In this document: one piece after another, positions 24,459-42,439 of the stretch
Layout: each line of letters begins with the position of its first letter
Position numbering within the stretch: the stretch's first letter is position 1
NCBI GenBank assembly: GCA_900320245.1
Contig: ONRP01000027.1
Location: forward strand, 1 to 46,374
Reading direction: 5' to 3'
Source: an uncultured Prevotellaceae bacterium
GTDB taxonomy: Bacteria > Bacteroidota > Bacteroidia > Bacteroidales > Muribaculaceae
Length of the DNA: 46,374 nucleotides
The notes under the pieces: generated by a model
Seen by the model: the letters and a program-made list of their open reading frames with translations, nothing else
Told to the model about the DNA's origin: nothing
Databases searched by the model: none
Translations under genes and position numbers: made by a program

Positions 24459-24515
24459 CCGTATTAAACACATCACAAATGATATTGTATGCCCGAAAAC
24501 AAATAAAATGACAAT

Positions 24516-24546: not shown

Positions 24547-24693
24547 GCTTTATTAGTTGAATTCGTTGTAATTGAGCGCGGAAGCCAAAAATCCGCTCAA
24601 TTGGCTTCGCCGAGCAAAAGGTTCGCGTGATTCGTAGTTTAAAAGACCGCGGATGCTTCTGTAAACTTTAAACTCTTAGCCGCGAGCATATGG

Positions 24694-26493
24694 TCACCAG
24701 TTGCCGGTGAGCACTCTGCCAATCAGGGCCGTCACATCGTTGATGTCAATGTTGCCGTCTCCTTCCTCAATGTTGCAGTCGGCTGCGGTGGCGTCATACT
24801 CGACATTCTTGCCCAGAACGACATCAATCAACAAGGTCACGTCGTTGATGTCGACCTCACCATTGCCGTCCACATCGCCACGCAGTTTCTCACCCTGCTT
24901 GAAGGTGTAGTCGATGTAGGCTCCCGGAATGCTGAAACGCAAAGTAACCTCGCGGTAAGTCGTGCCGGCGGGCAAGGCGTCGGCATTAATCCTGACATTG
25001 ACAAAATCAACATTGTTCTGAATAATAAGGTGTAACCAAATGGGTACATAACCGCCTTCGGCTTTGGCCACCGACCACACATCAGCGCTGTAGGGAGAAG
25101 AAGAGATGAGACGGAGGCTCCTCTCTTGAGGGGTGTCATCACTATACTGTTGCTGCATCAAGCCGCCACTGGCCGGGAAGGTGTACACTCCCGGGTTGAG
25201 ACTGTTGTAGAAACCGATGTAGGGCTGGTCAATAACCATAAAGATCGAAAAGCCCGTCTTCATGGTTAAGTTGCCATCGTCTCCATAGAAGAAGTTGTTC
25301 AGGCCGAGCCATTTATACTCACCAGGGACGTCCTCTTCGCTCTCATAATAGTTAGTTTTGATGTAAGCCAACTCGCCGTAACCCTCATCGACCTGATCGT
25401 CTGTGCTGACGAGAGCCGAGAAATCAGCCAGGTTAGACATCCACGCTGAGTTATAGCCTTCGATAACAATCAGGATGGCATCATCGATTACGGGTGTGAT
25501 GGTCTGAATCCCGTTCACATCATAGAGAGTGAAAGTAATCAGACTATTATTGGTTGAACTGGCATCGAGGTTAGCGATTCCGGTGGCAATCTGCTCTCCG
25601 ATTTGGTCATCAAGAGTGACAGGCTTCTCCTCATCATAGGCGGGGATTCCGTTCAACTTATACACTTTGCAAGTCAGTTGGACTGGTCCGGCCACATTCA
25701 ATTCAGTAACCCCGAGCGCCACATTCTTTAATATATAAGGAGCGGTCGGTTTCTCAAAGGCTTGAGCGATACCATTAATACGGCCTGCGTTCTTGCCAAA
25801 CCAGTAGCCATAGCCATTGTCGCCATAAGGGTCAGCACCAGAATAATAGGTTAATGGATATGTATAATCACCCCAGCGTCCACCCCAGCAGATGGTCTTG
25901 CTGGAAACAAGTAACTCACAATTCTCATTCCCTTCCAAACAACCATAGTTCAGGGCACTTAAAACATTGGCGAAATCTTTATTATGAGTATCAGAATCGG
26001 TATTACCCATATAATAAACATGGGTTGAATCGGCATCCTTGACATTCAATACCGGTACATAATATTTATTGGCTTCGATTGAGGCTTCATAACGGACTGT
26101 AAAATCTCGTCCGTTCCCAAAGGTGACAGTATCTGCAGAGGAATTAAACCAAGTGTAAGTCGCATTAGGGCTGACGCCATCACCAACCGACTTGAAGGTG
26201 TAATAAGTGTATGGTTTGCAAACCAAATACGGATTAGTAGTCAAATAATAATAAGTGGGAGCGTCTGTGTCGTAACCAAGAGTAGCATAAAACGCGCCAG
26301 CAGGGCGAATGTAGTAGGGCTTAGCATCCCTATTAGCGTTGAGACGGGGTTGTGCGGGCATGCCAGGAGTGCCCATCTTCATCTCCTTCATCTGTGCCAC
26401 CGGCATCTGTGCCAAGGAGGACTGTTTCAGTTGTGCGCCGGCGCCCATCGTGATAAGCAGCGCGGCGGCAAGAAATAACATTTTTTTCATCAT
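24694..26493 (-). CDS. Secreted BACON-like/dockerin protein, paralogue B
   Basis: A 599-residue protein homologous to, and convergent with, the gene at 22617. A signal peptide ends at about residue 20 (LLITMGAGAQ; start at 26493 or the next Met at 26490). It shares MGTPGMPAQPR, IRPAGAFYA, GYWFGKNAGRINGIAQAFEKP (in two blocks), TMKTGFSIF and the BACON-like IWLHLIIQNN with REVTLRFSIPGAYIDYTF and KQG. The C-terminal dockerin is complete here (DVDGNGEVDINDV and GDGNIDINDV, about residues 538-598), unlike the degenerate one in paralogue A. No enzyme motif is seen. Promoter TATCTTTG lies about 110 bases upstream. Confidence 0.7.
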   Translation of the reverse strand: MMKKMLFLAAALLITMGAGAQLKQSSLAQMPVAQMKEMKMGTPGMPAQPRLNANRDAKPYYIRPAGAFYATLGYDTDAPTYYYLTTNPYLVCKPYTYYTFKSVGDGVSPNATYTWFNSSADTVTFGNGRDFTVRYEASIEANKYYVPVLNVKDADSTHVYYMGNTDSDTHNKDFANVLSALNYGCLEGNENCELLVSSKTICWGGRWGDYTYPLTYYSGADPYGDNGYGYWFGKNAGRINGIAQAFEKPTAPYILKNVALGVTELNVAGPVQLTCKVYKLNGIPAYDEEKPVTLDDQIGEQIATGIANLDASSTNNSLITFTLYDVNGIQTITPVIDDAILIVIEGYNSAWMSNLADFSALVSTDDQVDEGYGELAYIKTNYYESEEDVPGEYKWLGLNNFFYGDDGNLTMKTGFSIFMVIDQPYIGFYNSLNPGVYTFPASGGLMQQQYSDDTPQERSLRLISSSPYSADVWSVAKAEGGYVPIWLHLIIQNNVDFVNVRINADALPAGTTYREVTLRFSIPGAYIDYTFKQGEKLRGDVDGNGEVDINDVTLLIDVVLGKNVEYDATAADCNIEEGDGNIDINDVTALIGRVLTGNW

Positions 26494-26601
26494 GTTTAAG
26501 AATTAGAGGTGAACGATATAAATATACAATTAGTTCATTAACTTTATGGCATCCAGTCGTTTGACCACTACAAGCCCTCCTAAAGGGCACCATATACACT
26601 A

Positions 26602-26609
26602 CAAAGATA
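26602..26609 (-). promoter_or_regulatory. Promoter of BACON-dockerin paralogue B
   Basis: Minus-strand TATCTTTG, identical to the -7 element of paralogue A and at a similar distance from the start codon. No -33 TTTG at standard spacing. Confidence 0.6.
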
Positions 26610-26782
26610 ATGCTTTTTCTCAAAAATCGTGTTTATATTGTAAATGGCACTTCTGTCATTAAGTTCAGATGCATCAATTGTTTATTATTTCAAAAAACGG
26701 TTAACTGAAAAGTATTATGTGCCTTTGACCATCAATCTAAGTGGTACTCACACTCGGAAAAGCAAAGAAAAAAAAGTTTTTC

Positions 26783-26814
26783 TTTGGCTTTTCGCTCGTT
26801 TAATCGTACCTTTG
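26783..26814 (+). promoter_or_regulatory. Full-consensus promoter of pheS
   Basis: TTTG (26783-26786), 20 bases, TACCTTTG (26807-26814). It ends 24 bases before the ATG at 26839 and rules out the upstream in-frame start at 26644. Confidence 0.75.
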
Positions 26815-26838
26815 CACGTTAATTCAACGACAAAGACT

Positions 26839-27876
26839 ATGTTAAAGGACAAGATAGAGGCGCTGAAAGCGCAAATAGCAGAACTCAAGGCCGAGAACGA
26901 AGAGGCCCTGGAGGCATTACGCATCAAGTACCTGAGCAAGAAAGGTGAGATTACTGCGTTGTTCAACGAGTTCCGTGAGGTGGCTCCCGAGGAGAAACGC
27001 GAGTTGGGCCAGAGGCTCAACGAACTGAAGAACCTGGCTACCGAAAAGATCAACGCCCTGCGCGAGGCCACCAAGCAGAAGGCCAAGGAGCAGAACAAGA
27101 TTGACATCACCCGTCCCGCCTTCCCGGCAGAGTTGGGTACGCGTCATCCCATCTCGGTGGTACGCAAGCAGATTATCGACATCTTCTCTCGCCTGGGCTT
27201 TACCATTGCCGACGGCCCCGAGGTGGAGGACGACTGGCATGTGTTCAGCGCGCTGAACTTTGCCGCCGACCATCCCGCCCGCGACATGCAGGACACCTTC
27301 TTCATCGAGAAGAACGAGCAGGACGTGACGCGCAACATCGTGCTTCGCAGCCACACCAGTTCGGTACAGGTGCGCACCATGGAGCGCAATCAGCCGCCCA
27401 TCCGCATCATCTGCCCGGGTCGCGTTTACCGCAACGAGGCCATCACCGCTCGTGCCCACTGCTTCTTCCACCAGATTGAAGGCCTGTACATCGACAAGAA
27501 TGTGACCTTTGCCGACCTGAAGCAGGTGTTGCTGCACTTCGCCAAGGAGTTGTTCGGCACCGACACCGAAATCCGCCTGCGTCCCAGTTACTTCCCGTTC
27601 ACCGAGCCCAGTGCCGAGATGGACGTCACCTGCATGCTGTGCGGCGGCAAGGGCTGCGGTTTCTGCAAGCACACGGGTTGGGTCGAGATTCTGGGCTGTG
27701 GCATGGTGGATCCCGCCGTGCTTGAGGCCAGCGGCATCGACAGCACGGTCTACAGCGGCTATGCCTTCGGCTTGGGCGTGGAGCGCATCACCAACCTGAA
27801 GTATATGGTGAAGGACCTGCGCATGTTCAGCGAGAACGACGTGCGTTTCCTTGACGAGTTCAAGAGTGCCCACTGA
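26839..27876 (+). CDS. pheS: Phenylalanyl-tRNA synthetase alpha subunit
   Basis: A 345-residue class II aminoacyl-tRNA synthetase subunit that charges tRNA-Phe as part of an alpha2-beta2 complex. The N-terminal coiled-coil (residues 1-85, rich in Lys, Glu and Ala) binds tRNA. The catalytic core shows GTRHPISVVRKQI, GFTIADGPEVEDDWHVFSAL, RSHTSSVQVRTM, motif-2-like RVYRNEAITARAHCFFHQIEG, FTEPSAEMDV and motif 3 GYAFGLGVERI. The start at 26839 follows the promoter; longer frames from 26644 would begin upstream of it. pheT is not adjacent, which is usual in Bacteroidota. A nested hairpin follows. Confidence 0.95.
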   Translation: MLKDKIEALKAQIAELKAENEEALEALRIKYLSKKGEITALFNEFREVAPEEKRELGQRLNELKNLATEKINALREATKQKAKEQNKIDITRPAFPAELGTRHPISVVRKQIIDIFSRLGFTIADGPEVEDDWHVFSALNFAADHPARDMQDTFFIEKNEQDVTRNIVLRSHTSSVQVRTMERNQPPIRIICPGRVYRNEAITARAHCFFHQIEGLYIDKNVTFADLKQVLLHFAKELFGTDTEIRLRPSYFPFTEPSAEMDVTCMLCGGKGCGFCKHTGWVEILGCGMVDPAVLEASGIDSTVYSGYAFGLGVERITNLKYMVKDLRMFSENDVRFLDEFKSAH

Positions 27877-27888
27877 TCACTTTACTCA

Positions 27889-27978
27889 TCAAACAACTTA
27901 AACTATTTATAACAACATAAACAACTTATCTAATTTATAGGGTTGGTTATGTTGTTTTTTGTTGTTCATGTTGTTTGA
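27889..27978 (+). terminator. Nested hairpin and terminator after pheS
   Basis: The outer stem TCAAACAAC with GTTGTTTGA (27889-27897 and 27970-27978) encloses the inner stem AACAACATAA with TTATGTTGTT (27911-27920 and 27947-27956). The inner stem runs into six T residues, consistent with intrinsic termination. The layout parallels the element after pgk. Confidence 0.7.
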
Positions 27979-28002
27979 CAAAAAACATAGTTTGAAAAAA
28001 CG

Positions 28003-28632
28003 ATGACCATCAAGGAAAGATATCAAGGTATTTTAGCATATTTCCAACAGGAACAACCTAATCCTGAAACCGAACTGCAACACCGTGATCCGTTTGAATT
28101 ACTGGTGGCAGTGATGTTGAGTGCCCAATGCACCGACAAACGGGTGAATATGGTTACGCCAGCCCTGTTTGACGCCTACCCTACCGCACAAGCGATGGCC
28201 GCTGCCAGTGTCGAGGATATCCTGCATTATGTCAAGAGCGTGTCTTACCCCAACAGCAAGGCCGCGCACCTGCAGGCTATGGCTCAGAAACTGGTAGATG
28301 AGTTCGAGGGCCAGGTGCCCGACAACATGAAAGACCTCACGTCGTTGCCCGGCGTGGGCCGCAAGACCGCCAACGTGGTCATGGGGGCCGCCTTCGGCAA
28401 ATCAACGATACCCGTCGACACCCACGTCTATCGCGTGTCACACCGACTGGGATTATCCCAAGGCAAGACGCCTAACGATGTTGAGCGTGATTTGGCCCGT
28501 CACATCCCCGCCGAGATGCGTTTCAAGGCCCACCACTGGATACTGCTCCACGGCCGATATGTCTGCAAAGCCTTGCGTCCCGATTGCTTGAATTGCGGTA
28601 TCCAGCAGTACTGCAAGCAATATAAAGCCTAA
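28003..28632 (+). CDS. nth: Endonuclease III (DNA glycosylase/AP lyase)
   Basis: A 209-residue base-excision repair enzyme that removes oxidised pyrimidines and nicks abasic sites. The helix-hairpin-helix LPGVGRKTANVV contains the catalytic Lys, and PVDTHVYRVSHRLGL contains the catalytic Asp. The C-terminal [4Fe-4S] cluster ligands are in the CKALRPDC-LNC-GIQQYC pattern (C-x6-C-x2-C-x5-C). Length is normal. It starts shortly after the pheS terminator and probably has its own promoter, although only a near-consensus ATAGTTTG is visible. Confidence 0.95.
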   Translation: MTIKERYQGILAYFQQEQPNPETELQHRDPFELLVAVMLSAQCTDKRVNMVTPALFDAYPTAQAMAAASVEDILHYVKSVSYPNSKAAHLQAMAQKLVDEFEGQVPDNMKDLTSLPGVGRKTANVVMGAAFGKSTIPVDTHVYRVSHRLGLSQGKTPNDVERDLARHIPAEMRFKAHHWILLHGRYVCKALRPDCLNCGIQQYCKQYKA

Positions 28633-28790
28633 AAAAGCCAGGCTAAATAATAATGTACTCTATTCCCTCAAAATCATGGTTTTTGTCGACAGATTAAACC
28701 ATAAAGCATTATTATCGTCAAACGTTTGTTTTGACTGAAAACAATATTAACAAGAAAACGACTAAAGTTTTTATTAAACCCAAACAAATT

Positions 28791-29411
28791 ATGAAGAAAG
28801 TTTTTGTTTTGATTGCTGCTGCAATCGTTAGCATGAGCGCTATGGCTCAGGTTCAATTTGGTGGAAAGGTCGGTTTTGACATGACCCACTTCTGGGGCAA
28901 GGATGTTGGCCACGAACTTGTACCCAACTATCAATTAGGTTTGATGATGGAATATAAGTTCAATCCGTCGTTTGCCATCGCTCCTGAGGTAGTCTTTGCA
29001 GCCCAGGGTGGCAAGGAAACTGAAGATGGCACTAAAGTCACCTATCACACCAACTATATTAATGTCCCCGTGATGCTCAAGTTCTATGCTACGCCGTCAT
29101 TCAGCATTGACTTTGGACCTCAAGTTGGCTTCAATGTTTATAGCAAAGCCACGGCTGCCTACAGCGGTTACAAGGCAACTCTTGATATTAAGGAGATGAC
29201 CAACTTAGTTGACTTTGGTGTGGGATTAGGTTGCACATATAACTTGACCAATAATGCTTTTGTTCAGGCCCGTTATAATCTTGGTTTGACCAAAGCATTC
29301 AAGGGTGGCAGCGAAAAGTTTGACTATGAGGGATATGACATCGAACTGAGTGGCGATTCTCCCGACGTCAAGAACGGCAACATCCAGTTGGCCTTCGGTA
29401 TGAAGTTCTAA
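28791..29411 (+). CDS. Outer-membrane beta-barrel protein, tandem paralogue 1
   Basis: A 206-residue porin-like protein of the PorT/outer-membrane beta-barrel family. The signal peptide MKKVFVLIAAAIVSMSAMAQ is cleaved after AMAQ. Alternating beta-strand segments follow (VQFGGKVGFDMTHFWG, YQLGLMMEYKFNPSFAIAPEVVF, FSIDFGPQVGFNVYS, FVQARYNLGLTKAF) and it ends with the typical outer-membrane Phe (FGMKF). The start was set at the Met beginning the signal peptide; the frame is open 20 codons further upstream. The function is unknown. The first 71 bases differ from paralogue 2 at one position. Confidence 0.85.
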   Translation: MKKVFVLIAAAIVSMSAMAQVQFGGKVGFDMTHFWGKDVGHELVPNYQLGLMMEYKFNPSFAIAPEVVFAAQGGKETEDGTKVTYHTNYINVPVMLKFYATPSFSIDFGPQVGFNVYSKATAAYSGYKATLDIKEMTNLVDFGVGLGCTYNLTNNAFVQARYNLGLTKAFKGGSEKFDYEGYDIELSGDSPDVKNGNIQLAFGMKF

Positions 29412-29444
29412 TCAAGACAAAGAAGAAAGAATATTCTATAACAC

Positions 29445-29473
29445 AGACAGCCCGACAAAAAGCCGGGTTGTCT
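29445..29473 (+). terminator. Hairpin after the first beta-barrel gene
   Basis: AGACAGCCCG (29445-29454) pairs with CGGGTTGTCT (29464-29473) with one wobble, 34 bases after the stop. A competing 12-bp pairing (29409-29420 with 29468-29479) shares its right arm. Confidence 0.6.
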
Positions 29474-29666
29474 TGATTATAAGCGGCTGATGGCGTTGTG
29501 ACACTGCTCAAAATGCGCAAAAGTGTCCTAAATTGCGCTAAAAGTGTGCTTATAAGTCCGAATTATTAAACTTTCCCAAAATATTAACGTCAAATTAACG
29601 TTTTAACTGAAAACAACAGTATTAACCAGATAATAACGTATCGTTTTATTTAACTGTAAAAAGATT

Positions 29667-30281
29667 ATGAAGAAAGTTTTTGTTTTGATTGCTGCTGCAA
29701 TCGTTAGTATGAGCGCTATGGCTCAGGTTCAATTTGGAGGTAAAGTTGGTTTTGACATGACCAATTTCTGGGGTTCAAATGTTGAACACGGCATGAAGCC
29801 CGGCTATCAAGTGGGCTTGATGATGGAGTACAAGTTCTCCCCCAAGTTCGCTATTGCTCCTGAAGTTGTTTTTGCTGCTCAGGGTGGTAAGAGCAAGGCT
29901 CTGGCTTTTGACATCAATAAGCACGGCATTGAACTCGCTGCTACTGACATTAAATATAATACCAACTACATCAATGTCCCCCTGATGCTCAAGTTCTATG
30001 CAACGCCCAATTTCAGCATCGACTTAGGTCCTCAGGTAGGTTTCAACGTGTACAGCAAGGTCACTGCTAAGGGTGTTGATGATGCCATCGACTTCAAGGA
30101 TGCCACTAATGCTGTTGATTTTGGCATCGGTATGGGCGGCACCTATAACCTCACCGAGAATGCCTTTGTACAGGCTCGTTACACCATGGGTCTTACCAAG
30201 GTGTTCAAGGATGAGTACATCCTTGGCGAAAACAACGCCAAGAACGGCAACATCCAGATTGCCTTCGGCATGAAGTTCTAA
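29667..30281 (+). CDS. Outer-membrane beta-barrel protein, tandem paralogue 2
   Basis: A 204-residue paralogue of the preceding gene with an identical signal peptide and colinear strands (FGGKVGFDMTNFWG, YQVGLMMEYKFSPKFAIAPEVVF, FSIDLGPQVGFNVYS, FVQARYTMGLTKVF and terminal FGMKF). The extracellular loops differ, for example an insertion near KSKALAFDINKHGIELA, suggesting different surface exposure or ligands. The upstream sequence (TTTTAACTGAAAACAA and nearby) is also related to that of copy 1, so the duplication included part of the leader. A strong terminator follows. Confidence 0.85.
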   Translation: MKKVFVLIAAAIVSMSAMAQVQFGGKVGFDMTNFWGSNVEHGMKPGYQVGLMMEYKFSPKFAIAPEVVFAAQGGKSKALAFDINKHGIELAATDIKYNTNYINVPLMLKFYATPNFSIDLGPQVGFNVYSKVTAKGVDDAIDFKDATNAVDFGIGMGGTYNLTENAFVQARYTMGLTKVFKDEYILGENNAKNGNIQIAFGMKF

Positions 30282-30318
30282 TAGCCATAACAGAATACAA
30301 GAGAGAAAACAATTCACC

Positions 30319-30354
30319 GAAAACGGCTGCCCCGAATGCGGAGCAGCCGTTTTC
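30319..30354 (+). terminator. Terminator after the second beta-barrel gene
   Basis: GAAAACGGCTGC (30319-30330) and GCAGCCGTTTTC (30343-30354) are perfect complements with a 12-base loop and a T-rich right edge, 37 bases after the stop. The following 180 bases to the end of def are AT-rich with nothing recognised. Confidence 0.8.
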
Positions 30355-30532
30355 ATCTATATTCTGCCATCATTGAAATCGTCCAAACTATTTCTAAAAA
30401 TATCTATAAAAATATAAAAAGTTCTTAAAAAGTTTGTACGATTCAAAAAATGATTTGTACATTTGTACGTGTGTTTTTCATGGTATTAGATTTAAGGTTT
30501 GTGGAGGCTGTCGTGAGACATCTTCCACTTTT

Positions 30533-31105
30533 TTATTTCTTGCGGTTGTGGGGAGCGAATTTGCAATGGTAACTACACGAGACATCTCCCTTAGCCATAT
30601 TATTTAATTTCTTGCGTATCAACTGTTTGCGAATGGGCGAAATGCGGTCCACAAAGAGCGTTTTGTCCAGGTGGTCACACTCGTGCTGGACCACTCGGGC
30701 CAAGTATCCCTCGACAATCTGGTCATGTTCGTTGAACTCCTCGTCCTGCCAGCGCAGGCGGATCTTCTCGTGGCGTTGAACATTCTCATGAATGCCTGGC
30801 ACACTGAGGCAGCCCTCCTCGCGAGTCACAGCAGGAGACTCTTCATCGATATCGATTACAGGGTTGATGAGCACCATGCGCACGTCCTTGAGTTCGGGGA
30901 AATCCTCGGCCAGAACATCCACATCGATGTAGACGATGCGTGCGTTCACACCGACCTGCGGAGCGGCGATACCGATTCCCTGGGTGTGGTACATGGTTTC
31001 CTTCATGTTCTCAATCAGTTCCTTAAGGTTAGGATAGTCAGGCGTGACCGTGGCATTGTCGGCACGGAGCACGGGATGACCGTAAATGTAAATGGGAAGT
31101 ATCAT
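30533..31105 (-). CDS. def: Peptide deformylase
   Basis: A 190-residue metalloprotease removing the N-formyl group from nascent proteins. All three signature motifs are present: GIGIAAPQVG (motif 1), EGCLSVPG (motif 2, metal-binding Cys) and QHECDHLDK (motif 3, HExxDH-type). Length and start (MILPIYIYGHPVL) are normal. It follows ruvX by 20 bases and is the last gene of an rho-ruvX-def run; no obvious terminator is seen after it. Confidence 0.95.
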   Translation of the reverse strand: MILPIYIYGHPVLRADNATVTPDYPNLKELIENMKETMYHTQGIGIAAPQVGVNARIVYIDVDVLAEDFPELKDVRMVLINPVIDIDEESPAVTREEGCLSVPGIHENVQRHEKIRLRWQDEEFNEHDQIVEGYLARVVQHECDHLDKTLFVDRISPIRKQLIRKKLNNMAKGDVSCSYHCKFAPHNRKK

Positions 31106-31125
31106 GATTATAATGCTGAATTATC

Positions 31126-31545
31126 TTATTGGTTGTAAATGCTCTGTAAGTAATCGTTGAGGATAATGGTCGCAGCGATAGCGTCAACGCGCGACTTGTC
31201 GCGGCGGTCGCTCTTCTTCATTCCGCCGTCGATCATCGCCTGGTGGGCGATGGCACTCGTGAATCGCTCGTCATACATCACGACCGGCATGTCGGGCAGT
31301 TCGTTGTGCAGCCGATTGACAAAGGGAGTGATGTAGCGAACGCTTTCGCTGGGCTCGCCGTTGAGTTGCGTCGGCTGGCCGATGACGATGCGCTCCACCG
31401 GTTCACGCGCGATGTAGTCCTTGATGAACTGTATGAGCGTGTGGGTGGGGACAGTAGCCAGATTCCCTGCCACTATCTTCAGCGGATCGGTCACCGCCAC
31501 GCCGGTGCGCTTGCGGCCATAATCGATGCCCAGAATGCGTCCCAT
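31126..31545 (-). CDS. ruvX: Holliday-junction resolvase-like protein RuvX/YqgF
   Basis: A 139-residue RNase H-fold protein implicated in pre-16S rRNA 5' maturation and proposed as a Holliday-junction resolvase. MGRILGIDYGRKRTGVAVTD carries the first catalytic Asp. IVIGQPTQLNGEPS, VVMYDERFTSAIA and DKSRVDAIAATIILNDYL supply the other conserved acidic segments. The ATG at 31545 was preferred to a TTG four codons upstream. It sits between rho and def in the same direction, with gaps of 18 and 20 bases. Confidence 0.92.
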   Translation of the reverse strand: MGRILGIDYGRKRTGVAVTDPLKIVAGNLATVPTHTLIQFIKDYIAREPVERIVIGQPTQLNGEPSESVRYITPFVNRLHNELPDMPVVMYDERFTSAIAHQAMIDGGMKKSDRRDKSRVDAIAATIILNDYLQSIYNQ

Positions 31546-31563
31546 CGTCCTCAACAATCAATC

Positions 31564-32268
31564 TCAACCTTGTTGCATAGTGAGCAGGAACTCCTCGTTG
31601 TCACGGGTGCGGTCCATGCGCTCCTTGACAAATTCCATGGCCTCGACCGAGGTGCGGTCGCTCAGGAAGCGGCGGATAATCCACATCTTGTTCAACGTGT
31701 CCTGAGGCAACAACAGGTCATCGCGACGTGTGCTCGACGCCATGACATCCACGGCGGGGAAGATACGTTTGTTGGACAACTTGCGGTCAAGTTGCAATTC
31801 CATGTTACCCGTGCCCTTGAATTCCTCAAAGATGACCTCGTCCATCTTGGAACCGGTCTCGGTAAGGGCTGTAGCGATGATGGTCAGGCTACCACCGCCC
31901 TCGATATTACGCGCAGCGCCAAAGAAACGCTTGGGGCGCTGCAGTGCATTGGCGTCGACACCACCAGTCAGAATCTTGCCCGATGCCGGAGCAATCGTGT
32001 TATAGGCACGCGCCAGGCGGGTAATCGAGTCGAGCAGAATCACCACATCGTGGCCGCACTCCACCAGTCGCTTGGCTTTGCTCAACACGAGGTCGGCAAT
32101 CTTGACATGGCGGTCGGCGGGCTCGTCAAAGGTCGAAGCAATCACCTCGGCATTAACGCTGCGGGCCATATCGGTCACCTCCTCGGGGCGCTCGTCGATG
32201 AGCAGAATGATCATGTAGGTCTCGGGGTGGTTCTCGGAAATGGCATTGGCAATCTCCTTCAGCAGCAT
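31564..32268 (-). pseudogene. rho: Transcription terminator Rho, C-terminal fragment (frameshifted from upstream part)
   Basis: This fragment carries the ATPase core of Rho from just after the P-loop: [48 protein letters not shown], the Walker [52 protein letters not shown] and the C-terminal STRRDDLLL. The Met at 32268 corresponds to an internal Met following GKT in normal Rho, so it is not a natural start. Relative to the N-terminal fragment it is in another frame and lacks the Walker A motif. On its own it could not hydrolyse ATP or translocate RNA. Confidence 0.85.
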
Positions 32269-33587
32269 GGTCTAACCACACGCTGCGAAACGGTGGGATG
32301 GGTCTTGCTCACCAAGTCAAACTTTTCGTCGGGGAACAGCGGCACCAGATGCTCAAACGGCACACGGTCACGCACATAGTTAGGCGTGCGGCCGTTGATC
32401 AGGCGGATTTCGCTCAAGGGGAAATACTTCTCACCCTCCATGGGAGGACGTATGGTGCCCTCAATCACGTCACCTGTCTTGAGGCCGTAGGCTTTGATTT
32501 GTGACTGCTGCACATAGATGTCGTCGGGCGAAGTCAGGTAGTTGTAATCACTGGAGCGCAGGAATCCGTATCCCTCAGGAGCAATGTCGAGCACACCCTG
32601 AGCCTCGAGAATACCTTCAAAGTTATATGGCTGGTCGAGATAGGGATTGACCTCGGCAATCTGCTGCTGTTGCTGTTGCTTCATCTTGCGCTTCTTGTTC
32701 TTGCTCTCCTTGACCACCTTGGGTTCCTGGATGACGATAGGAGCGACAGCGGCTTCCTCGGCCTGGCGCTTGCGCTCTTCCTCGGCGCGGCGCATGGCCT
32801 CCTCGCGTTCTTGCTGCGTGCGCGGCTTGAAGGTGAACCCACTACCCGTGTTGAAGAACGAATTCAACGACATGCCTTCGCGCTCACGGGGATTCTGCTC
32901 GGCAGGTGCCTGCTCAACAACGGGAGCCGGTTGTTCGTCCGGCTGCTGCTCAAAGGGCTGCTCGGCCACGGGCTCTTCGGCCTGGGGCTGCGGCTCTTCA
33001 TTGTCGAATGGAAGAGTCGGTGCCATATCTTCCTGCTTGGCCTTGCGTCCGCGGCGACGTGCAGGTTGTTCCTGAATCTTGGCAGCGGCAGCCTTGGCGG
33101 GAGCCTTGGCAGGCTTTTCGGCCGGCTCAGCCATCTGCTCGTCCTGCTGTTCGGCCGAAGCATTCAATTCTGCCTCACGTGCAGCCTTCTCGGCGGCCGA
33201 GGGGCGCCCGCGTTTACGCTTGGGAGCAGGTTGTGCAGGCTGTTCTGCCTCGGCGGGTTCGGCCTGTTCAGCAGGCTTATCTTCTGTCTTGGGCAACTCC
33301 ACCTTGGCTTGCTCTTTATTTTTATTGTTTTTTGAGACCGCATCATCCTTAGTCACCTCGTTCCCGTTAGCCTTAGCAGCCGGTTGGCGGATGCGCTCAC
33401 GGCGACGTTTAGCGGGTTCAGGCGTATTAGCGGCTTCGTTGGCGGCTTCGGTCTCGGCCTGATGGTCCAGTAACTGGTACTGGAGGTCCTCACGAGGAGT
33501 AGTATCGACCTTTTTCAGTCCCATTGACTTGGCCAATTCACGCAAGTCGGTCTCGCTCATTGATTTCAGTTGATCTAAATTATACAT
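32259..33587 (-). pseudogene. rho: Transcription terminator Rho, N-terminal fragment with long disordered insertion
   Basis: A 442-residue N-terminal part of Rho, starting at MYNLDQLKSMSETDLRELAKSM (Rho N-terminal helical domain). A low-complexity region rich in Ala, Pro, Glu, Gln and Lys follows to about residue 300, the disordered insertion known from Bacteroidota Rho (reported to drive phase separation in B. thetaiotaomicron). Then comes the RNA-binding cold-shock-like domain (VLDIAPEGYGFLRSSDYNY, DVIEGTIRPPMEGEKYF). The frame ends after VSQRVV in a spurious RPCC and stop, exactly where DLFAPIGKGQRG and the P-loop should follow. About 64 bases appear to be missing. It could be a real mutation, strain variation or an assembly error. 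Confidence 0.85.
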
Positions 33588-33847
33588 ACTCGTAATGATG
33601 AATCGGGAAAAATCACACACTATACTCCATATCAAAATTGTACAGTGCCACGCACTCTCGTGCCTGTAATATCCCAGTTAATGATTTGTCTTGTTAGTAT
33701 ATCCTCCCGTAATTAGCATTGTCTAACCACTATACTGATATTACCGACATATATAGATGTCGCAAATTCGATAATGGATTCAGGAAAAAAACGGGAGATG
33801 TGAATTAATTGTCACAAAACACTCACTGTTGGAGCCGTTTTGCGTTG

Positions 33848-33879
33848 CAAAATTAGTGATTTTTGGAAACATGAACAAA
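33848..33879 (-). promoter_or_regulatory. Full-consensus promoter of rho with long leader
   Basis: Minus-strand TTTG (33876-33879), 20 bases, TAATTTTG (33848-33855). Transcription should start near 33841-33844, about 255 bases before the rho ATG at 33587. The leader shows no recognised RNA family or good reading frame. Confidence 0.7.
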
Positions 33880-33898
33880 AAAAGCGGGAAAAAAGCAG

Positions 33899-33906
33899 TA
33901 TTTTTG
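33899..33906 (+). promoter_or_regulatory. Promoter of the CCA-transferase/alkyltransferase fusion
   Basis: TATTTTTG (TAnnTTTG) ends 20 bases before the ATG at 33927. It overlaps the divergent rho promoter region, so the two promoters are nearly back to back. Confidence 0.6.
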
Positions 33907-33926
33907 CAGTCAATAAAAACAGAAAT

Positions 33927-35858
33927 ATGGAAATCGACCGTCAAAAAATAGCAAAACACGTCAACCTGCCCGTCATGCAACTGGTGGGCAGCGTAGCCGA
34001 TGAACTGCGCCGTGAATGCTACGTTGTGGGGGGATATGTGAGAGACATCTTCCTGGAGCGCCCCAGCAACGACATGGACTTTGTGACCGTCGGCAGCGGC
34101 ATCGAACTGGCCAAAGCGGTGGCTAACCGCATCGGCAAACGGGCCCATCTGGCGGTGTACCGCAACTACGGCACGGCACAAGTGAGGACGCGGCAGTGGG
34201 AACTCGAGTTTGTCGGCGCCCGCCGCGAATTCTATCATCGCGAGAGCCGCAACCCCATCGTTGAAGACGGGACCCTCAATGATGACCAGCAACGCCGTGA
34301 CTTTACCATCAATGCGATGGCGATTTGCCTGAACAAGGAGCGGTACGGCGAGTTGCTTGACCCGTTTGACGGCATCGGTGACCTGGAACGCCGCATCATC
34401 CGCACACCACTCGACCCGGACATCACCTTCAGCGACGACCCGTTGAGGATGATGCGCGCCGTTCGGTTTGCCACGCAACTGGATTTTGACATCTATCCCG
34501 AGACGTTCAACGCTATCAAGCGCAACGCCAAGCGCATCAGCATCATCACGCGTGAGCGAATTTCCGAGGAACTGATGAAGATCATGCGCAGCCCATCACC
34601 ATCGCGGGGATGGATGCTGCTCGATCAATGCGGACTGCTGCCGCTCATCTTCCCTGAAATTGCCGCACTCAAGGGAGTGGAGACCGTCAACGGACGCGGG
34701 CACAAAGACAACTTCATGCACACGTTGCAAGTGCTCGACAATGTGGCACATTCCAGCAACGACGTGTGGCTACGCTGGGCCGCACTGCTGCACGATGTGG
34801 GCAAGGCACGCACCAAGCGCTGGGATCCACAACTCGGCTGGACCTTCCATAACCACAATTTTGTGGGCGAGAAGATGGTGCCCAAGATTTTCGCCAAGAT
34901 GCGGATGCCGCTCAACGAACACATGAGATATGTGAAGAAACTCGTCGGGCTGCACATGCGTCCCATCGCACTGGTCGAGGACGAAGTGACCGACAGTGCC
35001 GTCAGGCGCCTACTCTTTGATGCGGGCGACGATATCGATGACCTGATGACCTTGTGCAAGGCCGACATCACCAGCAAGAACCAGAACAAGGTACAGCGTT
35101 TCCGTGAGAACTTCGACCTGGTGAAACGCAAACTCGTGGACATCGAGGAGAAAGACCGTGTGCGCAACTTCCAGCCGCCTGTCGACGGCGAAGAAATCAT
35201 GCAGACCTTCGGTCTCGAGCCGTCCAAGCCAGTGGGATATATCAAGGACGCCATCAAGGATGCCATCCTCGACGGTGTCATCACCAACGACTATGCCTCG
35301 GCCTACCGCCTCATGCTCGCCAAAGCCCGTGAACTGGGCATCGAGCCCGTCAACAAGGGGCAACTGTGCCACACCACGATGGACACCCCGGTCGGTCTGC
35401 TCCACATAGGCGCCAGCGCCGAAGGCGTTGCCGTCATTGGCTGGAGCAGTGATGAAGTGGACGCTATCGCACGTCGCTTGGAACTGTCACCCGTCGATGC
35501 CCTCACTCCCCTACTCGCCCAAGCCATGGCCCAACTACGGGAATACTTCGACGGCACCCGTCGCCAATTCTCATTACCGCTGCACATCAAGGGCACCGAG
35601 TTCCAAATGCGGGCATGGGCCGAACTGCAAAAAATCCCGTACGGGGAAACTATCTCCTACGGGGAGCAGGCCGCGCGTCTGGGCAGCCCTAAGGGCTCAC
35701 GTGCTGTTGCGCAAGCCAACCACAACAACCGCGTTGCCATCGTCATCCCGTGCCACCGCGTCATTAACGCTAACGGTTCACTGGGCGGCTACGCTCCTGG
35801 GCCCGACAAGAAACGACTGCTCCTTGACTTGGAGCAGAAACATAAAAACAAGAACTAA
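33927..35858 (+). CDS. Fusion of CCA-adding tRNA nucleotidyltransferase and O6-alkylguanine-DNA alkyltransferase
   Basis: One uninterrupted 643-residue frame (numbering from the ATG at 33927). Residues 1-475 form a complete CCA-adding enzyme: VVGGYVRDIFLERPSNDMDF (GG signature with the catalytic DxD at 49-51), RRDFTINAMA, DDPLRMMRAVRFATQL, and an HD domain with LLHDVGKA (His289-Asp290). Residues 479-643 form a complete MGMT/Ogt repair protein: TPVGLLHIGAS, FQMRAWAELQKIPYGETISYGEQA, and VIPCHRVI with acceptor Cys609, then GGYAPGPDKK. The first repairs tRNA 3' ends; the second removes alkyl groups from O6-guanine. Each half is about normal family length with almost no linker. The promoter supports 33927 over a longer frame from 33840. 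Confidence 0.9.
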   Translation: MEIDRQKIAKHVNLPVMQLVGSVADELRRECYVVGGYVRDIFLERPSNDMDFVTVGSGIELAKAVANRIGKRAHLAVYRNYGTAQVRTRQWELEFVGARREFYHRESRNPIVEDGTLNDDQQRRDFTINAMAICLNKERYGELLDPFDGIGDLERRIIRTPLDPDITFSDDPLRMMRAVRFATQLDFDIYPETFNAIKRNAKRISIITRERISEELMKIMRSPSPSRGWMLLDQCGLLPLIFPEIAALKGVETVNGRGHKDNFMHTLQVLDNVAHSSNDVWLRWAALLHDVGKARTKRWDPQLGWTFHNHNFVGEKMVPKIFAKMRMPLNEHMRYVKKLVGLHMRPIALVEDEVTDSAVRRLLFDAGDDIDDLMTLCKADITSKNQNKVQRFRENFDLVKRKLVDIEEKDRVRNFQPPVDGEEIMQTFGLEPSKPVGYIKDAIKDAILDGVITNDYASAYRLMLAKARELGIEPVNKGQLCHTTMDTPVGLLHIGASAEGVAVIGWSSDEVDAIARRLELSPVDALTPLLAQAMAQLREYFDGTRRQFSLPLHIKGTEFQMRAWAELQKIPYGETISYGEQAARLGSPKGSRAVAQANHNNRVAIVIPCHRVINANGSLGGYAPGPDKKRLLLDLEQKHKNKN

Positions 35859-35862
35859 AAAG

Positions 35863-35890
35863 AAAACCGCCTGATGCGTCAGGCGGTTTT
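35863..35890. terminator. Bidirectional terminator between convergent genes
   Basis: AAAACCGCCTGA and its complement pair perfectly over 12 bp around the loop TGCG, with A-rich and T-rich flanks on the two sides. It ends both the fusion gene and the seven-gene minus-strand operon. Confidence 0.85.
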
Positions 35891-35899
35891 ACTTTTCTA

Positions 35900-36631
35900 C
35901 TATTCGTCTTCAACAAGCCACTCGCTCCACGGTAAGGAGATATCATTCGGGTCATCGGTGCTGATGACATCTTCATCGGAATAATAGTTTCGGATGGTAT
36001 AGCGGTTGGTGACGCGATAAGAGTCATAATAGGAAGGATCAAACACTTGCAGGAAAGTCACCTCGGACTGCAGGTCGGTACCCATCCACATCATCTTCGT
36101 ACAGGTCGTCTCAAATGCCGAACTCGACGTCACGCGATAGACAACCTCATTGTTCGGATCAAAGAAAAAGTAGCCGTTGAAAACAACAAAACCGTCATTT
36201 GAGGCCAGAACAAAGTCGTTTTTCTCATCATTCCACAACAGCAAGACACTGTAATTGCGGTTGCTGCCAGGTCCAACCAAGATATCGACTTTGCCGTCAA
36301 AATTGGCGTCTAGGAAATGTACCACATCCTGGGTCACGCCATAGTCCTCATCAAGGGGTACAGTCGTCATCGGCAGATCGTCGGAAGAAACCAGCACCAA
36401 GTTGATCGCATATTCCCCCTCATTCAGGGTCACATCGAGCACCTCATGAGTTGTGGGGCAGTCGTCAACGGAGAAAAAGCCGTCCTTATCAAGGTTTACT
36501 TTGGGTACTGCCAACTGATCCTTCGACGTTGCAGGCACTACACTCTGCCGGGGTGTACCACACGCCATCAAGGCCGTCATCGCCATCAAGGCAACGACAC
36601 AAGATTGCAAATTAACATTACTCCTTTTCAT
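35900..36631 (-). CDS. Lipoprotein with VCBS/FG-GAP-like segment, last gene of zinc-ribbon operon
   Basis: A 243-residue predicted lipoprotein, signal peptide MKRSNVNLQSCVVALMAMTALMAC with lipobox LMAC (Cys24). The mature protein contains VVHFLDANFDGKVDILVGPG, which looks like a single FG-GAP/VCBS-type calcium-binding element, but no enzyme motif. The function is unknown. It follows the M15 peptidase by 37 bases in the same direction and ends at the terminator 35863-35890, so it is probably the last member of the operon, exposed on the cell envelope. Confidence 0.65.
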   Translation of the reverse strand: MKRSNVNLQSCVVALMAMTALMACGTPRQSVVPATSKDQLAVPKVNLDKDGFFSVDDCPTTHEVLDVTLNEGEYAINLVLVSSDDLPMTTVPLDEDYGVTQDVVHFLDANFDGKVDILVGPGSNRNYSVLLLWNDEKNDFVLASNDGFVVFNGYFFFDPNNEVVYRVTSSSAFETTCTKMMWMGTDLQSEVTFLQVFDPSYYDSYRVTNRYTIRNYYSDEDVISTDDPNDISLPWSEWLVEDE

Positions 36632-36668
36632 AATTCATTAAAAAATTAATTTGTTACTATCAGTCAAC

Positions 36669-37502
36669 TCACATCAGCAACTCGGGCCGGAACTCAAAGT
36701 GCATCGTGTCGTAATGATACCAGCGCCCACCCCAGATAAAGCCATGACGCTCAAAGATACGCACAAGTTCAAGAGGCATACTGTTCTTGTACTTGATGGT
36801 GGCGGTCTCATTTTTGCCGGGATTATCCCATTTCCAGTAATTGGATTTGGAAACGCCGACGTCTATTGCGATACCATAAGAATGTGCGCTCAGACGTTCG
36901 CTGCCACTGACGTTGCGCCAATAAAATGTGCCAGCGGTTTTAGTGTAGGCAAGAAGGTGGGGATTGTTCTTGATCTCCTGGCTGACGGCCCGCAGGCTAT
37001 CGGCAGCACCGTTAACCGAAGAGAACTTCACTTTTGTTCCGAACCAATCCACAGGAACCAGCCGTTTTTGTACCTGAGCCGAAGAGGCCCCGTACATCAG
37101 TTTAAACAGTTGTTCACAACGTGAACGCCCAGGGTCCTCGCAATAACCCGGCTGAGTGCTTACCGTGTCATACTGCCAGGCAAAGATGTCAACCGGCTCG
37201 GCATGGTCAAGTTTATCCATGAAAGACTTATCCTTGCCGCTGTCATAGACAATCTTTGTCCCATCGGCCATAACCAGATTGCCGTCAACAAATTCCTTGA
37301 TGTGGTCGGGATAGGACTTGAGGAGTCGTCCTGCCCCTTCAGGGACAGACGCTTCGGCTCGGGGTGACGGAGCCTCAACCTGCGGCTGGTCAGTGCCTGT
37401 TTCGGCACCAGAGTCAGCCGTCTCGGTCCTGGAGCACGCGATGCACCCCAGCACCAATGCCGTCAAGGCCCATAATATGCTTAGACCTCGAGGCCTCATC
37501 AT
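36669..37502 (-). CDS. M15-family metallopeptidase lipoprotein (D-Ala-D-Ala carboxypeptidase-like)
   Basis: A 277-residue exported protein. The N-terminal hydrophobic segment ends in Cys residues suitable for lipidation (LVLGC or GCIAC). After an acidic linker the C-terminal domain matches peptidase M15 (VanY/endolysin type): RLSAHSYGIAIDVGVSKSNYW provides a zinc-binding His and Asp, and GGRWYHYDTMHFEFRPELL provides the catalytic Asp/Glu and second His. Such enzymes cleave peptidoglycan stem peptides in the periplasm. The start overlaps the stop of the upstream YARHG gene in an ATGA arrangement, indicating translational coupling. Confidence 0.8.
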   Translation of the reverse strand: MMRPRGLSILWALTALVLGCIACSRTETADSGAETGTDQPQVEAPSPRAEASVPEGAGRLLKSYPDHIKEFVDGNLVMADGTKIVYDSGKDKSFMDKLDHAEPVDIFAWQYDTVSTQPGYCEDPGRSRCEQLFKLMYGASSAQVQKRLVPVDWFGTKVKFSSVNGAADSLRAVSQEIKNNPHLLAYTKTAGTFYWRNVSGSERLSAHSYGIAIDVGVSKSNYWKWDNPGKNETATIKYKNSMPLELVRIFERHGFIWGGRWYHYDTMHFEFRPELLM

Positions 37503-38158
37503 TCATGGCTCTTTAAAAACTCGACATTTTTCTTCTCGTAGCCGTTGAGATCCTCGTTCGGCACCTCGTCGCGATATGGTTTATACCAGGATTGAGCATT
37601 GAAGTAATCCCGAAGAGTCTGATCCTTGAAATAGCGGCCGTGGCGGGCATAGATCGAGTTGCGCATGATGCGCAGTTCGGCCGATGTCTTCCCGGCGATA
37701 TCACTCATCGTGGCATAGCGATGAGAGAGCCATTCAAAGCCGGAATCATCAACGACGGTCTCGTCCTCTCGGACTGCAGCATTCGAGGCCGAGGAACGGG
37801 AGTTGTCATCCTCGAGCGATGGAGCGACGCTGACTTCATCGTCATCAGGAACTTCCCACGGCGACTCTGTCGTCGTGCGCGGTTCCATGACATATTTGTA
37901 AACCACAAAGCCTCCCAGGGCCAACACGGCGACAACAAGACAGGCGATGAGGGCTATCAGCGCGGGCGAAGTCCCCTTTTTGGGCTGTGTCATCGGTCTG
38001 GGATTACCGTAGGGTGAATAGCCCTGCTGAGGCATTGGCGCTTGACCCGGCTGTTGGGGAGGAATATTCATTCCTGTCACCGGCGCTCCACAATGCGGGC
38101 ATGCCATCAATTGATCGGAAACAGGCTTACCACAATTATTACATTTAATCAGTGCCAT
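37499..38158 (-). CDS. Zinc-ribbon, single-pass membrane protein with YARHG domain
   Basis: A 219-residue protein. An N-terminal zinc ribbon (MALIKCNNCGKPVSDQLMAC and PHCG, residues 1-24) is followed by a Pro/Gln-rich spacer, one transmembrane helix (about 65-91, ALIALIACLVVAVLALGGFVVYKYV), an acidic region and a YARHG domain (about 140-215, ELRIMRNSIYARHGRYF). The topology suggests the ribbon is cytoplasmic and YARHG extracytoplasmic. The domain is known only as an extracellular module often linked to peptidases, which fits the coupled M15 gene downstream (4-base overlap). The N-terminus is nearly the same as that of the gene at 40102. Confidence 0.75.
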   Translation of the reverse strand: MALIKCNNCGKPVSDQLMACPHCGAPVTGMNIPPQQPGQAPMPQQGYSPYGNPRPMTQPKKGTSPALIALIACLVVAVLALGGFVVYKYVMEPRTTTESPWEVPDDDEVSVAPSLEDDNSRSSASNAAVREDETVVDDSGFEWLSHRYATMSDIAGKTSAELRIMRNSIYARHGRYFKDQTLRDYFNAQSWYKPYRDEVPNEDLNGYEKKNVEFLKSHE

Positions 38159-38219
38159 AATCGAAATGAGTTTACTATTTATTAGAATATTGAACGTGTC
38201 CTGAATGGACTATTATATA

Positions 38220-40094
38220 CTATTGAAAAAGACTTTCGGTTGCCGGCCAAAGGGATTCGTTACGAATCGGCCTTGAGCGCACCGTACCATCTGACTTGAC
38301 TTTAGACCAGTCAATCTTATAGGTACGGTGGTTGACGGATTGTACCCTGTCGACGGTGTCATTGTACTGGCGGTGCTTGATGACCACCAAACTGCCATTG
38401 TTGTATTGCCACATGGTGGTCCACTGGCGGCTGGCACCTGCCCCTGAAGAGTAACTGTACTCATAAGTTGTCTCCTCGAGTGCCGTATTGCCACGCTTCT
38501 TGGTCATCGAAATGACATCACCCTCCTGGTTATATTCATACTCGATAACGATACCCCCACTGCGCTTGGACTCGATAAGCCGATAACGCGAGTCGTAGTT
38601 GTCGGTCTTGACAAATGTCGAGCCTTTGTAATAAGAGATTTGGTTATAGTAATCCATCGAATACACATAGCGGGAGCCATCGCTGCCTCGGATTTCCCTG
38701 AGGGAGCCGCCGATGTCCCACTGCGTTGTGTAGGTTATCGTCTTGCCGCTGGCATCAGTCTTGGACAACAGCACGAAGCCGTGGTCCGGATCGAAATCAT
38801 AGTCATACTGTTCACTCACATCAGTGCGCGAATTATAGTAATTGGTCAAGAGCCCCTGCTTATTGAAATTGAAGTATTCTGTTCCATCGTAGGCATACTC
38901 GCTATCGATATTCTCCTCAACCCTGCCGACAAGACCGTCACAATTGTTGACCACGGCCGAAGTGGGCATCAGCAACAAGTTGGCATACAGCACCTTGATA
39001 TGGGACCCGTCCAGATGATCATACGGCAGATTGTCGCACACACGGTACAACTCGTTCAGGGAGACCGAACTGTTGAAATATTTTCCCAACAGCGCATCCT
39101 GCATCAGTTGGCGTGCCTCGGAGACGTGATCTGAATAAGGGTATTCCTTGACAAAATCACCATAAGCACCCACCGAGTTGGATTTTTGTGCATCACGGAA
39201 AGCATACTTCTCCTGCAGGGCCTTCACTTCGCTGTAATAGTCCGAGGCGGGATACAACTTCAGGTACTCCTTGCAGGCATCGACGGTCTGGTCGAGTTCA
39301 TCAAAGGCGCATTTGTGCAGGCGTTCCTCGACTCTCAGACGATATCTGGAATGGGGATAATCGGTAAGATACTCCTTGCAGGCAGCAGCGGTATATCCCA
39401 GTTCATCATAGGCGATGCTGTCCCTGCGCCACTGGATGGCATTGAAATGGGTCTGGTTCAGATTACCATATTTATTGAGATAGCGTTTGCATTCGCTCAG
39501 GGCATGGGTGTTCTTCACCACATCATAGGCGACCCGTTCACGCTCATTCATCAGAGTGGACATGTCGGGATAGTCAAACAGATCCCCTATCAGTTTGTCA
39601 TATTCAGCCTCGGTCTTCACCTTCCTGACACTGTCAATGAGGTTGGTCTCGATTGCGCTCTTGATATCGGATACATAGAAACCTAAATCCTTGTGCTGCA
39701 GCAATAAGTTGGCATTCTGAACGTCATAGGGCCTCTGGCTGACTTTCTTGACAATCCCGTAGGCGTTCCACGGGTCATAAGGCAGGCAGATGGTCGACTT
39801 ACCCCTTCCGTCACGGATGTTCATCATCATGGCATCGGACAGTTGCCACACGGGATATAGTTGGTCGGTTATGGGTGAGTAAGGGTTCAAATCCTTGTCC
39901 TTGACGGCCTTTTTCTCGATATCTTCCTTGTATTTGGCCGCTTTGTCAAGTTTGTGTTCCTTCAGTGCCTTGAATGTCTTTACCATATTCTTATGGTAAT
40001 AGTTATCCCCGAGGAACAACTTTTCCTGGGCAACGGCATCGATTGCCGAGCCCATAAGCAGAATCATCAATACGGTAACTAATCTCCTGTTCAT
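38220..40094 (-). CDS. Exported helical-repeat protein with C-terminal YD/RHS-like strands
   Basis: A 624-residue protein with signal peptide 1-23 (VLMILLMGSAIDAVAQ). Residues 25-360 are mainly helical and contain TPR-like units such as ACKEYLTDYPHSRYRLRVEERL and ACKEYLKLYPASDYYSEVKAL. From about 390 to 590 there are beta-rich tyrosine repeats of the YD/RHS kind (FNKQGLLTNYYNSRTD, YSMDYYNQISYYKGS, YDSRYRLIESKRSGG, YEYNQEGDVISM). I do not recognise a specific family. It lies 7 bases after the upstream zinc-ribbon gene, within the operon, and shares TPR-like sequence style with that protein, suggesting interaction in the periplasm. Confidence 0.65.
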   Translation of the reverse strand: MNRRLVTVLMILLMGSAIDAVAQEKLFLGDNYYHKNMVKTFKALKEHKLDKAAKYKEDIEKKAVKDKDLNPYSPITDQLYPVWQLSDAMMMNIRDGRGKSTICLPYDPWNAYGIVKKVSQRPYDVQNANLLLQHKDLGFYVSDIKSAIETNLIDSVRKVKTEAEYDKLIGDLFDYPDMSTLMNERERVAYDVVKNTHALSECKRYLNKYGNLNQTHFNAIQWRRDSIAYDELGYTAAACKEYLTDYPHSRYRLRVEERLHKCAFDELDQTVDACKEYLKLYPASDYYSEVKALQEKYAFRDAQKSNSVGAYGDFVKEYPYSDHVSEARQLMQDALLGKYFNSSVSLNELYRVCDNLPYDHLDGSHIKVLYANLLLMPTSAVVNNCDGLVGRVEENIDSEYAYDGTEYFNFNKQGLLTNYYNSRTDVSEQYDYDFDPDHGFVLLSKTDASGKTITYTTQWDIGGSLREIRGSDGSRYVYSMDYYNQISYYKGSTFVKTDNYDSRYRLIESKRSGGIVIEYEYNQEGDVISMTKKRGNTALEETTYEYSYSSGAGASRQWTTMWQYNNGSLVVIKHRQYNDTVDRVQSVNHRTYKIDWSKVKSDGTVRSRPIRNESLWPATESLFQ

Positions 40095-40101
40095 TGCCTT
40101 A

Positions 40102-41811
40102 TCAATAATGAGTTGTCTTGTTCAAGCCCAAAGAAGTTATCTTGCCCTGGGCGTTCACTGTCGCCGTGCCGTTGTAGTGGGCGAACGTCTCCTGGCTGGT
40201 GTCTTCGCGGTTAAGCCGCTGGTCAAAGCCGAAAGTGGCCGTATAGACAGGATCCCCTTGAGCATTGAGCGTTTTCTTGACGGTGATTTTGCCCATCGAG
40301 ACTTTCACCCCATACACGTCACCAGAGTGGATGCGGTTCATATAAGCGGTGACATCACTGTAGGATGCATTCTTCTTGCCCAGGAATGACGCCATCGGCG
40401 ACGTGACACAAGCCGTCATGGCCGACCCGTTACGATTGGCCATCGCCGAGAAGAAGGAACTTACCCGTGAAGTGACCATGCTCGACTCGGCTGGTGTCAA
40501 TTGCTGCTTGGCCTTGAGTTCGGCCTGTTGTTGGGCTTGTTGCTGTTCCTGCTCAGCCTGCTGATTGGCATGCTGTTGGGCCTCGCCACGGTGTTTGCCT
40601 TGAGGGCACTGTGCCATATATTCCTCATAGGCAGCAGATGTTCCGGCAGCAGTGGCCTTTTTCCACATCACATTGTCAAGCGCCTCGACAGCCTGGTCGT
40701 GATAGGGACCATCGGGATGCTTGGCGATAAAATCCTGCAGTGCTTTCGGGTCATCAGACTTTTCAATCTTGGCCCACTCTTCACCGACTGCTTGCAGGGA
40801 GGCTTTAAAATCCTTTACCTGTGCCGCATGCTCGCCATCTGGATAGTTGCTCAAGTAATCTTCAATCGCCTGCATGTCGCCTGTCTTCTCGACTTGCTGC
40901 CATGCCTCATATTCCCGCTGGTTGGCACCGTTCTGATAGAACACATATCCACCCGCAGCAAGCACCAAGGCCAAGATGATACCGGCTATCGAACCGATAA
41001 GCAGTTTGCGCTTCTTGGCAGCGGCGACCACATCTGCATTGTGTTGTTCCATTGCGGCATCCAGGCGGTCTTTCAAATCCTTGTAACTGGACTCGTCGGC
41101 CTTCATAGCGACCAACTGGCACAAATCCTGCTGTGCATCATCCAGGCGCCCGGAATCAAGGCAGTCCTTCATCGTGCGGCGCAAATCCTTCACCCGCTGC
41201 TCGAAGGCGACCTGATAGTCCTTGTTCAGACGCTTGTATCGTTCATTGTCGGGATCCAACTGGAGCAGGCCATCGATATGATTGCGGGCCGAGCCGAAAT
41301 CTTTGGAGTCAAGACTGGCTTTTGCCGCTTTATACATCTGTGCCTCCCGCTCGGCTTTCTGCTTGCGTTCGCGCTCCCGCTCTTGTGCCTCTTTCTGCCT
41401 GCGTTCACGCTCCAAACGTTCTTTGTCGCGCTCACCGCTTGGCGTCAGCGCTCCGCATTGGGGGCACTTCAATGCTTTAGGGCTCATCTGCTTTCCACAA
41501 TGGGGACAGGAAACAAGGTCTGCTGCTGAATTCCTCACTTGTGGGTTGGCTGCCGATACTGCTTGCTCCAGCCGATTCTTCAATTCCAGAAAACGTGCAT
41601 CGGACGGAAATGCGGCGAGCCGGTTATCAATATACTGACGGGCCACATCATAACGCCCTTGCTTCAGGCTGTTGAGCGCCTCACGATACATAACATCGGC
41701 AATGGCATCCGTCCTGGGTGTCTGGACGGACACCGGTGCTCCACACTTGGGACACGCGGCAGCCCTGTCGCTGACATTATGACCACAATTTCTGCATTTA
41801 ATCAGTGCCAT
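40102..41811 (-). CDS. Double zinc-ribbon, TPR-like, single-pass membrane protein with C-terminal NTF2-like domain
   Basis: A 569-residue protein. Zinc ribbon 1 spans residues 1-25 (MALIKCRNCG, CPKCG), a short helical repeat 40-80, zinc ribbon 2 at 102-120 (CPHCGKQ, CPQCG), a charged coiled coil about 127-165 (RERERKQKAEREAQ), TPR-like helices 165-250, a transmembrane helix 268-294, extracytoplasmic TPR-like repeats 300-405 (DYLSNYPDGEHAAQV, DFIAKHPDGPYHDQAV), a Gln/Ala coil 410-440, and a C-terminal alpha/beta domain 445-569 resembling NTF2-like folds. The function is unknown; the layout suggests a cytoplasm-to-periplasm scaffold or sensor. It is the third operon gene, with a gap of 12 bases to the gene upstream. 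Confidence 0.7.
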   Translation of the reverse strand: MALIKCRNCGHNVSDRAAACPKCGAPVSVQTPRTDAIADVMYREALNSLKQGRYDVARQYIDNRLAAFPSDARFLELKNRLEQAVSAANPQVRNSAADLVSCPHCGKQMSPKALKCPQCGALTPSGERDKERLERERRQKEAQERERERKQKAEREAQMYKAAKASLDSKDFGSARNHIDGLLQLDPDNERYKRLNKDYQVAFEQRVKDLRRTMKDCLDSGRLDDAQQDLCQLVAMKADESSYKDLKDRLDAAMEQHNADVVAAAKKRKLLIGSIAGIILALVLAAGGYVFYQNGANQREYEAWQQVEKTGDMQAIEDYLSNYPDGEHAAQVKDFKASLQAVGEEWAKIEKSDDPKALQDFIAKHPDGPYHDQAVEALDNVMWKKATAAGTSAAYEEYMAQCPQGKHRGEAQQHANQQAEQEQQQAQQQAELKAKQQLTPAESSMVTSRVSSFFSAMANRNGSAMTACVTSPMASFLGKKNASYSDVTAYMNRIHSGDVYGVKVSMGKITVKKTLNAQGDPVYTATFGFDQRLNREDTSQETFAHYNGTATVNAQGKITSLGLNKTTHY

Positions 41812-41823
41812 AATTTTGATTCT

Positions 41824-42423: not shown

Positions 42424-42439
42424 AATCCACGACAATCGT

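Follow-up and report, generated by a model that had tools for sequence, protein, structure and literature searches.

A 64-base gap that removes the Walker A motif from rho in a draft Muribaculaceae genome: probable assembly error

ATP binding in the ATPase class to which Rho belongs needs the P-loop, or Walker A motif. Bacteroidales-type Rho (TIGR00767) carries, in order, a Rho_N domain (PF07498), a long low-complexity insert, an RNA-binding domain (PF07497) and a RecA-type ATPase domain (PF00006). The rho gene is reported to be among the essential genes of Bacteroides fragilis (PMC4072883), and the B. thetaiotaomicron protein, BtRho, is reported to be essential (PMC13269538). Assembly errors are reported to lie behind many putative pseudogenes in public genomes (PMC11017572). 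Here we describe a stretch of 46,374 nucleotides (the window) from a draft genome of an uncultured Muribaculaceae bacterium (73 contigs, 90.44% complete), in which the assembled rho is broken at Walker A by a deletion that is unseen in the other copies of rho examined and that is flanked by undecayed coding sequence.

A rho locus divided between two reading frames

The list of open reading frames and their translations place the Rho coding region on the minus strand at 31564-33587, split over two frames, with the following features:

32259..33587, minus strand: N-terminal rho fragment, with the Rho_N domain, the long low-complexity linker and the RNA-binding domain; out of frame past SQRVV
32273..32274, minus strand: deletion join, with a net loss of 64 bases that include the Walker A segment
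31564..32268, minus strand: C-terminal rho fragment, with the remaining ATPase domain without Walker A, opening at the Met just after the lost GKT

The N-terminal frame has its conserved start, by alignment, at 33587 (33635 in the list of open reading frames) and ends in SQRVV-RPCC at a TGA stop codon at 32261-32259; the C-terminal frame extends from an ATG at 32268 to a stop codon that ends at 31564; and the two frames share a 10-base overlap at the join. The Walker A P-loop is in neither frame, and cannot be supplied by any frame or frame shift at the locus. The window contains no N, and the genes adjoining rho are sound.

Alignment with the rho locus of a relative (L012) defines the size of the loss. 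The left flank is identical to L012 at 37 of 40 bases, and the right flank matches at 45 of 54 bases with a shift of exactly 64 bases vs. at most 18 of 54 bases with the remaining shifts tried (58 to 69). A DNA search of 61 genomes of the genus likewise yielded, in relatives, a gap of matching size between the flanking matches at this site. We conclude that the assembled rho is split by a 64-base deletion, as an earlier note made from the sequence had proposed: the net loss is exactly 64 bases, between 32274 and 32273, and the frames and the L012 alignment bear out that note's account of about 22 lost codons, a frameshift and a lost P-loop.

Profile searches identify the domains on either side of the join. 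The N-terminal fragment scores 26.5 bits with PF07498 and 103.9 bits with PF07497, above the respective cut-offs of 24.9 and 27. The C-terminal fragment scores 69.9 bits with PF00006, above the cut-off of 29.5, but its match is confined to profile positions 29-212 of 213, the portion before position 29 being gone. With the whole-protein profile TIGR00767, the fragments score 117.9 and 404.7 bits (the latter at model positions 183-414), below the cut-off of 509.45 that is passed in 84 of 100 other genomes of the genus, and there is no single continuous rho reading frame. The window rho thus has the domain order, the long low-complexity insert ahead of the RNA-binding domain, and the remaining ATPase domain of Bacteroidales-type Rho, and differs from it in being without the 64 bases that contain Walker A and in occupying two frames, not one. 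In amino-acid sequence, its C-terminal part and those of the genus relatives compared are 98-99% identical; the best named match to this part, among the matches listed, is from an uncultured Muribaculaceae assembly (88%), which points to a probable origin in the Bacteroidales. The same two genes, ruvX-like and def-like (named by eye), lie downstream of rho in the window and in two relatives (L108 and L111).

The lost segment in relatives and selection on the remaining rho

All 19 genus loci that were read and all 80 named loci (73 recognised by pattern and 7 read directly; the best 80 of at least 592) carry, at this site, an unbroken segment running from GKGQRG (or GKGQRA) to GKT. None of the 80 named loci has a break at the join site, a result that applies to the site and not to whole genes. 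A TIGR00767 profile search detected a rho match in 89 of the 100 other genus genomes, with an internal stop in none of the 89. A degenerate pattern over the codons of IGKGQR, a motif of the lost stretch that lies beside Walker A, was found in 88 of the 100, always inside the rho match (compared by eye), with a second match to this short pattern in each of two genomes (G063 and G077). The 12 genomes without the motif comprise 11 without a rho match, each less than 90% complete, and one (G021) with Ns over the site. When the count is restricted to the 48 genomes with completeness of 90% or more and contamination of 5% or less, the motif is present in 47, and the one that lacks it is the genome that contains the window.

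Ratios of nonsynonymous to synonymous substitution (dN/dS) give no indication that the gene is decaying on either side of the lesion. For the C-terminal 231 codons, the 19 pairs of window and relative have a median dN/dS of 0.0061, and the 171 pairs of relatives one of 0.0103; for the 100 codons ahead of the join, the corresponding values are 0.0176 (18 usable pairs) and 0.0156 (160 usable pairs). Amino-acid changes private to the window number zero before the join and one in the C-terminal part, and several relatives have private changes equal to or above this number. Median dS is 0.9-1.3, a range at which dN/dS is blind to very recent loss and excludes only an old pseudogene, and a recent, real deletion therefore fits these values equally well. 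We conclude that rho outside the gap is not visibly decaying and is under constraint as strong as in relatives, with a very recent loss being undetectable by this measure.

Origin of the 64-base loss

The most likely cause of the gap is an error of draft assembly or consensus, to which we assign a probability of roughly 0.82. According to this reading, the organism's own rho is probably whole, and the loss would have originated in the assembly and not in the cell, the 64 bases having been dropped while the contig consensus of this probably metagenomic assembly was built across the site, possibly through a false join, gap closing or a chimeric read. We favor an artefact because the lesion is isolated, affects a gene that occurs once in the assembly, shows no relaxation of selection and is reported to be essential in two Bacteroides species, and lies in a draft assembly, and because it is present in no readable copy from a relative and has no repeat that could have caused it. 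The spurious pseudogenes described in PMC11017572 are similar in that a lesion interrupts an otherwise constrained gene in a draft assembly, and differ in that they involve a single stop or small frameshift rather than a loss of 64 bases. If the gap is an artefact, it is a caution that loss of an essential gene can be mimicked by a single short gap in a draft sequence.

Counting against an artefact is the otherwise accurate appearance of the assembly. Comparison with relatives over about 100 kb identified one frame-broken interval among 85 gene-like intervals, namely rho, and no similar lesion in another gene. The comparison drew on about 627 kb of own-genome sequence out of 3.02 Mb, the window included, and on 46 stretches from relatives (one largely N); it counted intervals matched by a relative's open reading frame of at least 120 aa, with a best piece of at least 65% identity and at least 60% coverage; and it set aside four short own-genome contigs that are N throughout (L115-L118) and a stretch that repeats the window (L134). 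By design the comparison is blind to in-frame deletions, and a few of the 85 intervals may be shadow frames. Such errors are therefore not frequent in this assembly, and, since none of the 89 genus rho matches has an internal stop, they are rare in rho too; if the deletion is an error, it stands alone in the compared part of the assembly. In favor of an artefact, one stretch of 41 N separates two genes on another contig of this genome (C35) and is probably a scaffold gap, although it could instead be masking.

Also counting against an artefact, the lost stretch ranks 235 of 1113 windows in conservation between species, which is not exceptional, and is no richer than the rest in shared 21-31-mers, and an assembly tangle at this exact site is therefore not specially predicted. 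A hotspot was also rejected: the apparent loss of rho up to the P-loop in G021 is a 989-base N run that ends just past the P-loop and leaves a partial rho match. Contig ends or Ns fall inside rho in at least six of the 89 genomes (G021, G039, G045, G053, G056 and G061; a count that leaves out the far end of the first G053 contig), a frequency that is near chance by a rough estimate from gene length and contig number, and we therefore claim no hotspot. The join sequence has no match in viral contigs, where rho is not expected and where its absence is uninformative.

A search for a biological cause was likewise negative. L012 contains three 6-base direct repeats, none of which brackets the lost stretch, and has no bracketing direct repeat of 6 or more bases; the L012 stretch folds no better than shuffled sequences, 185 of 200 of which fold at least as well. 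With no bracketing repeat and an ordinary fold, we found no ready mechanism for a biological deletion. Local alignments overlap by 3-4 bases at the join, which we judge to be unremarkable.

The alternative that survives best is a real deletion that arose very recently in the strain sampled or in a sub-population. Rho would then be inactive for want of its P-loop, and the mutant would be short-lived, present alongside intact cells or kept alive by a suppressor. In favor of this reading are a window that is free of N and has sound neighboring genes, the undecayed flanks, which a recent event would leave as well, the failure to find a second rho in the assembly, and the lack of another such error in 85 gene-like intervals. 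We regard it as unlikely, given that Rho is reported to be essential in two Bacteroides species, that 88 of the 89 genomes with a rho match elsewhere in the genus keep the motif and the last has Ns there, that no repeat of 6 or more bases brackets the lost stretch, and that the overlap at the join is only 3-4 bases. The earlier note had offered a recent event or an assembly error as the choices; both fit the intact flanks, and the second is the one we favor.

The earlier note had gone further, to a lineage that, were the deletion real, would lack Rho-dependent termination. That claim is not supported, given the apparent constraint on the rest of rho, the prevalence of rho and of the lost motif in the genus (89 and 88 of 100 genomes, respectively), and the reported essentiality in two Bacteroides species. 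It is very unlikely that a 64-base deletion has only now deprived a present-day Bacteroidales lineage of the ATPase activity of its sole rho, and that this lineage lives on with no Rho-dependent termination. Were it so, the lineage would represent a natural loss of a factor reported to be essential in Bacteroides, and would offer a chance to test how a cell copes without Rho.

That Rho function is provided by a second rho missing from the assembly is highly improbable. The check for a second intact rho that the earlier note had suggested was run, and none was found: searches of the genome's own assembly with an intact protein from a relative and with the TIGR00767 profile returned only the two rho pieces, a search with DNA from a relative returned only the rho locus, and the degenerate IGKGQR pattern had no match in the genome. 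At 90.44% completeness the assembly has room for such a gene, but other genomes have one rho match each, save two in which rho is split between contigs (G053 and G056), and an extra match in G084 is weak (18 bits). Least credible is a split, two-chain Rho with both fragments made and acting together: the C-terminal frame does open with ATG at the join and both pieces keep family-level sequence, but neither piece has Walker A, so that neither would be expected to support the ATP hydrolysis known from Rho, and neither the 80 named loci (at the join site) nor the 89 genus rho matches (for internal stops) provide a precedent.

Terminators and other features of the window

A further statement of the earlier note, that many genes here carry strong intrinsic terminators, is not borne out by the 20 kb that were scanned (26375-46374). 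This region has 16 terminator-like sites, vs. 20.7 (sd 4.5) in shuffled sequences; two relatives, each scanned over 20 kb, have 27 and 24. Compensation for loss of Rho by intrinsic terminators is thus unsupported in the region scanned, where such sites are not enriched and are fewer than in either relative. One strong two-way hairpin is present at 35863-35890.

Three other features of the window were observed. The genes at 14225-15436 and 26839-27873, which are adjacent in relatives L108 and L111, are 11.4 kb apart in the window; the extra DNA (15437-26838) encodes a metallo-hydrolase-like protein together with several large proteins that look secreted, some of which have dockerin-like ends (named by eye). 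The interval 28731-30281 encodes two tandem, paralogous outer-membrane-type proteins of 226 and 204 aa, both of which are matched by single proteins from the stretches of three relatives. The interval 33840-35858 is a single frame that encodes, by eye, a CCA-adding-type nucleotidyltransferase with a methyltransferase-like tail, and frames of about equal length are present at the same place in relatives.
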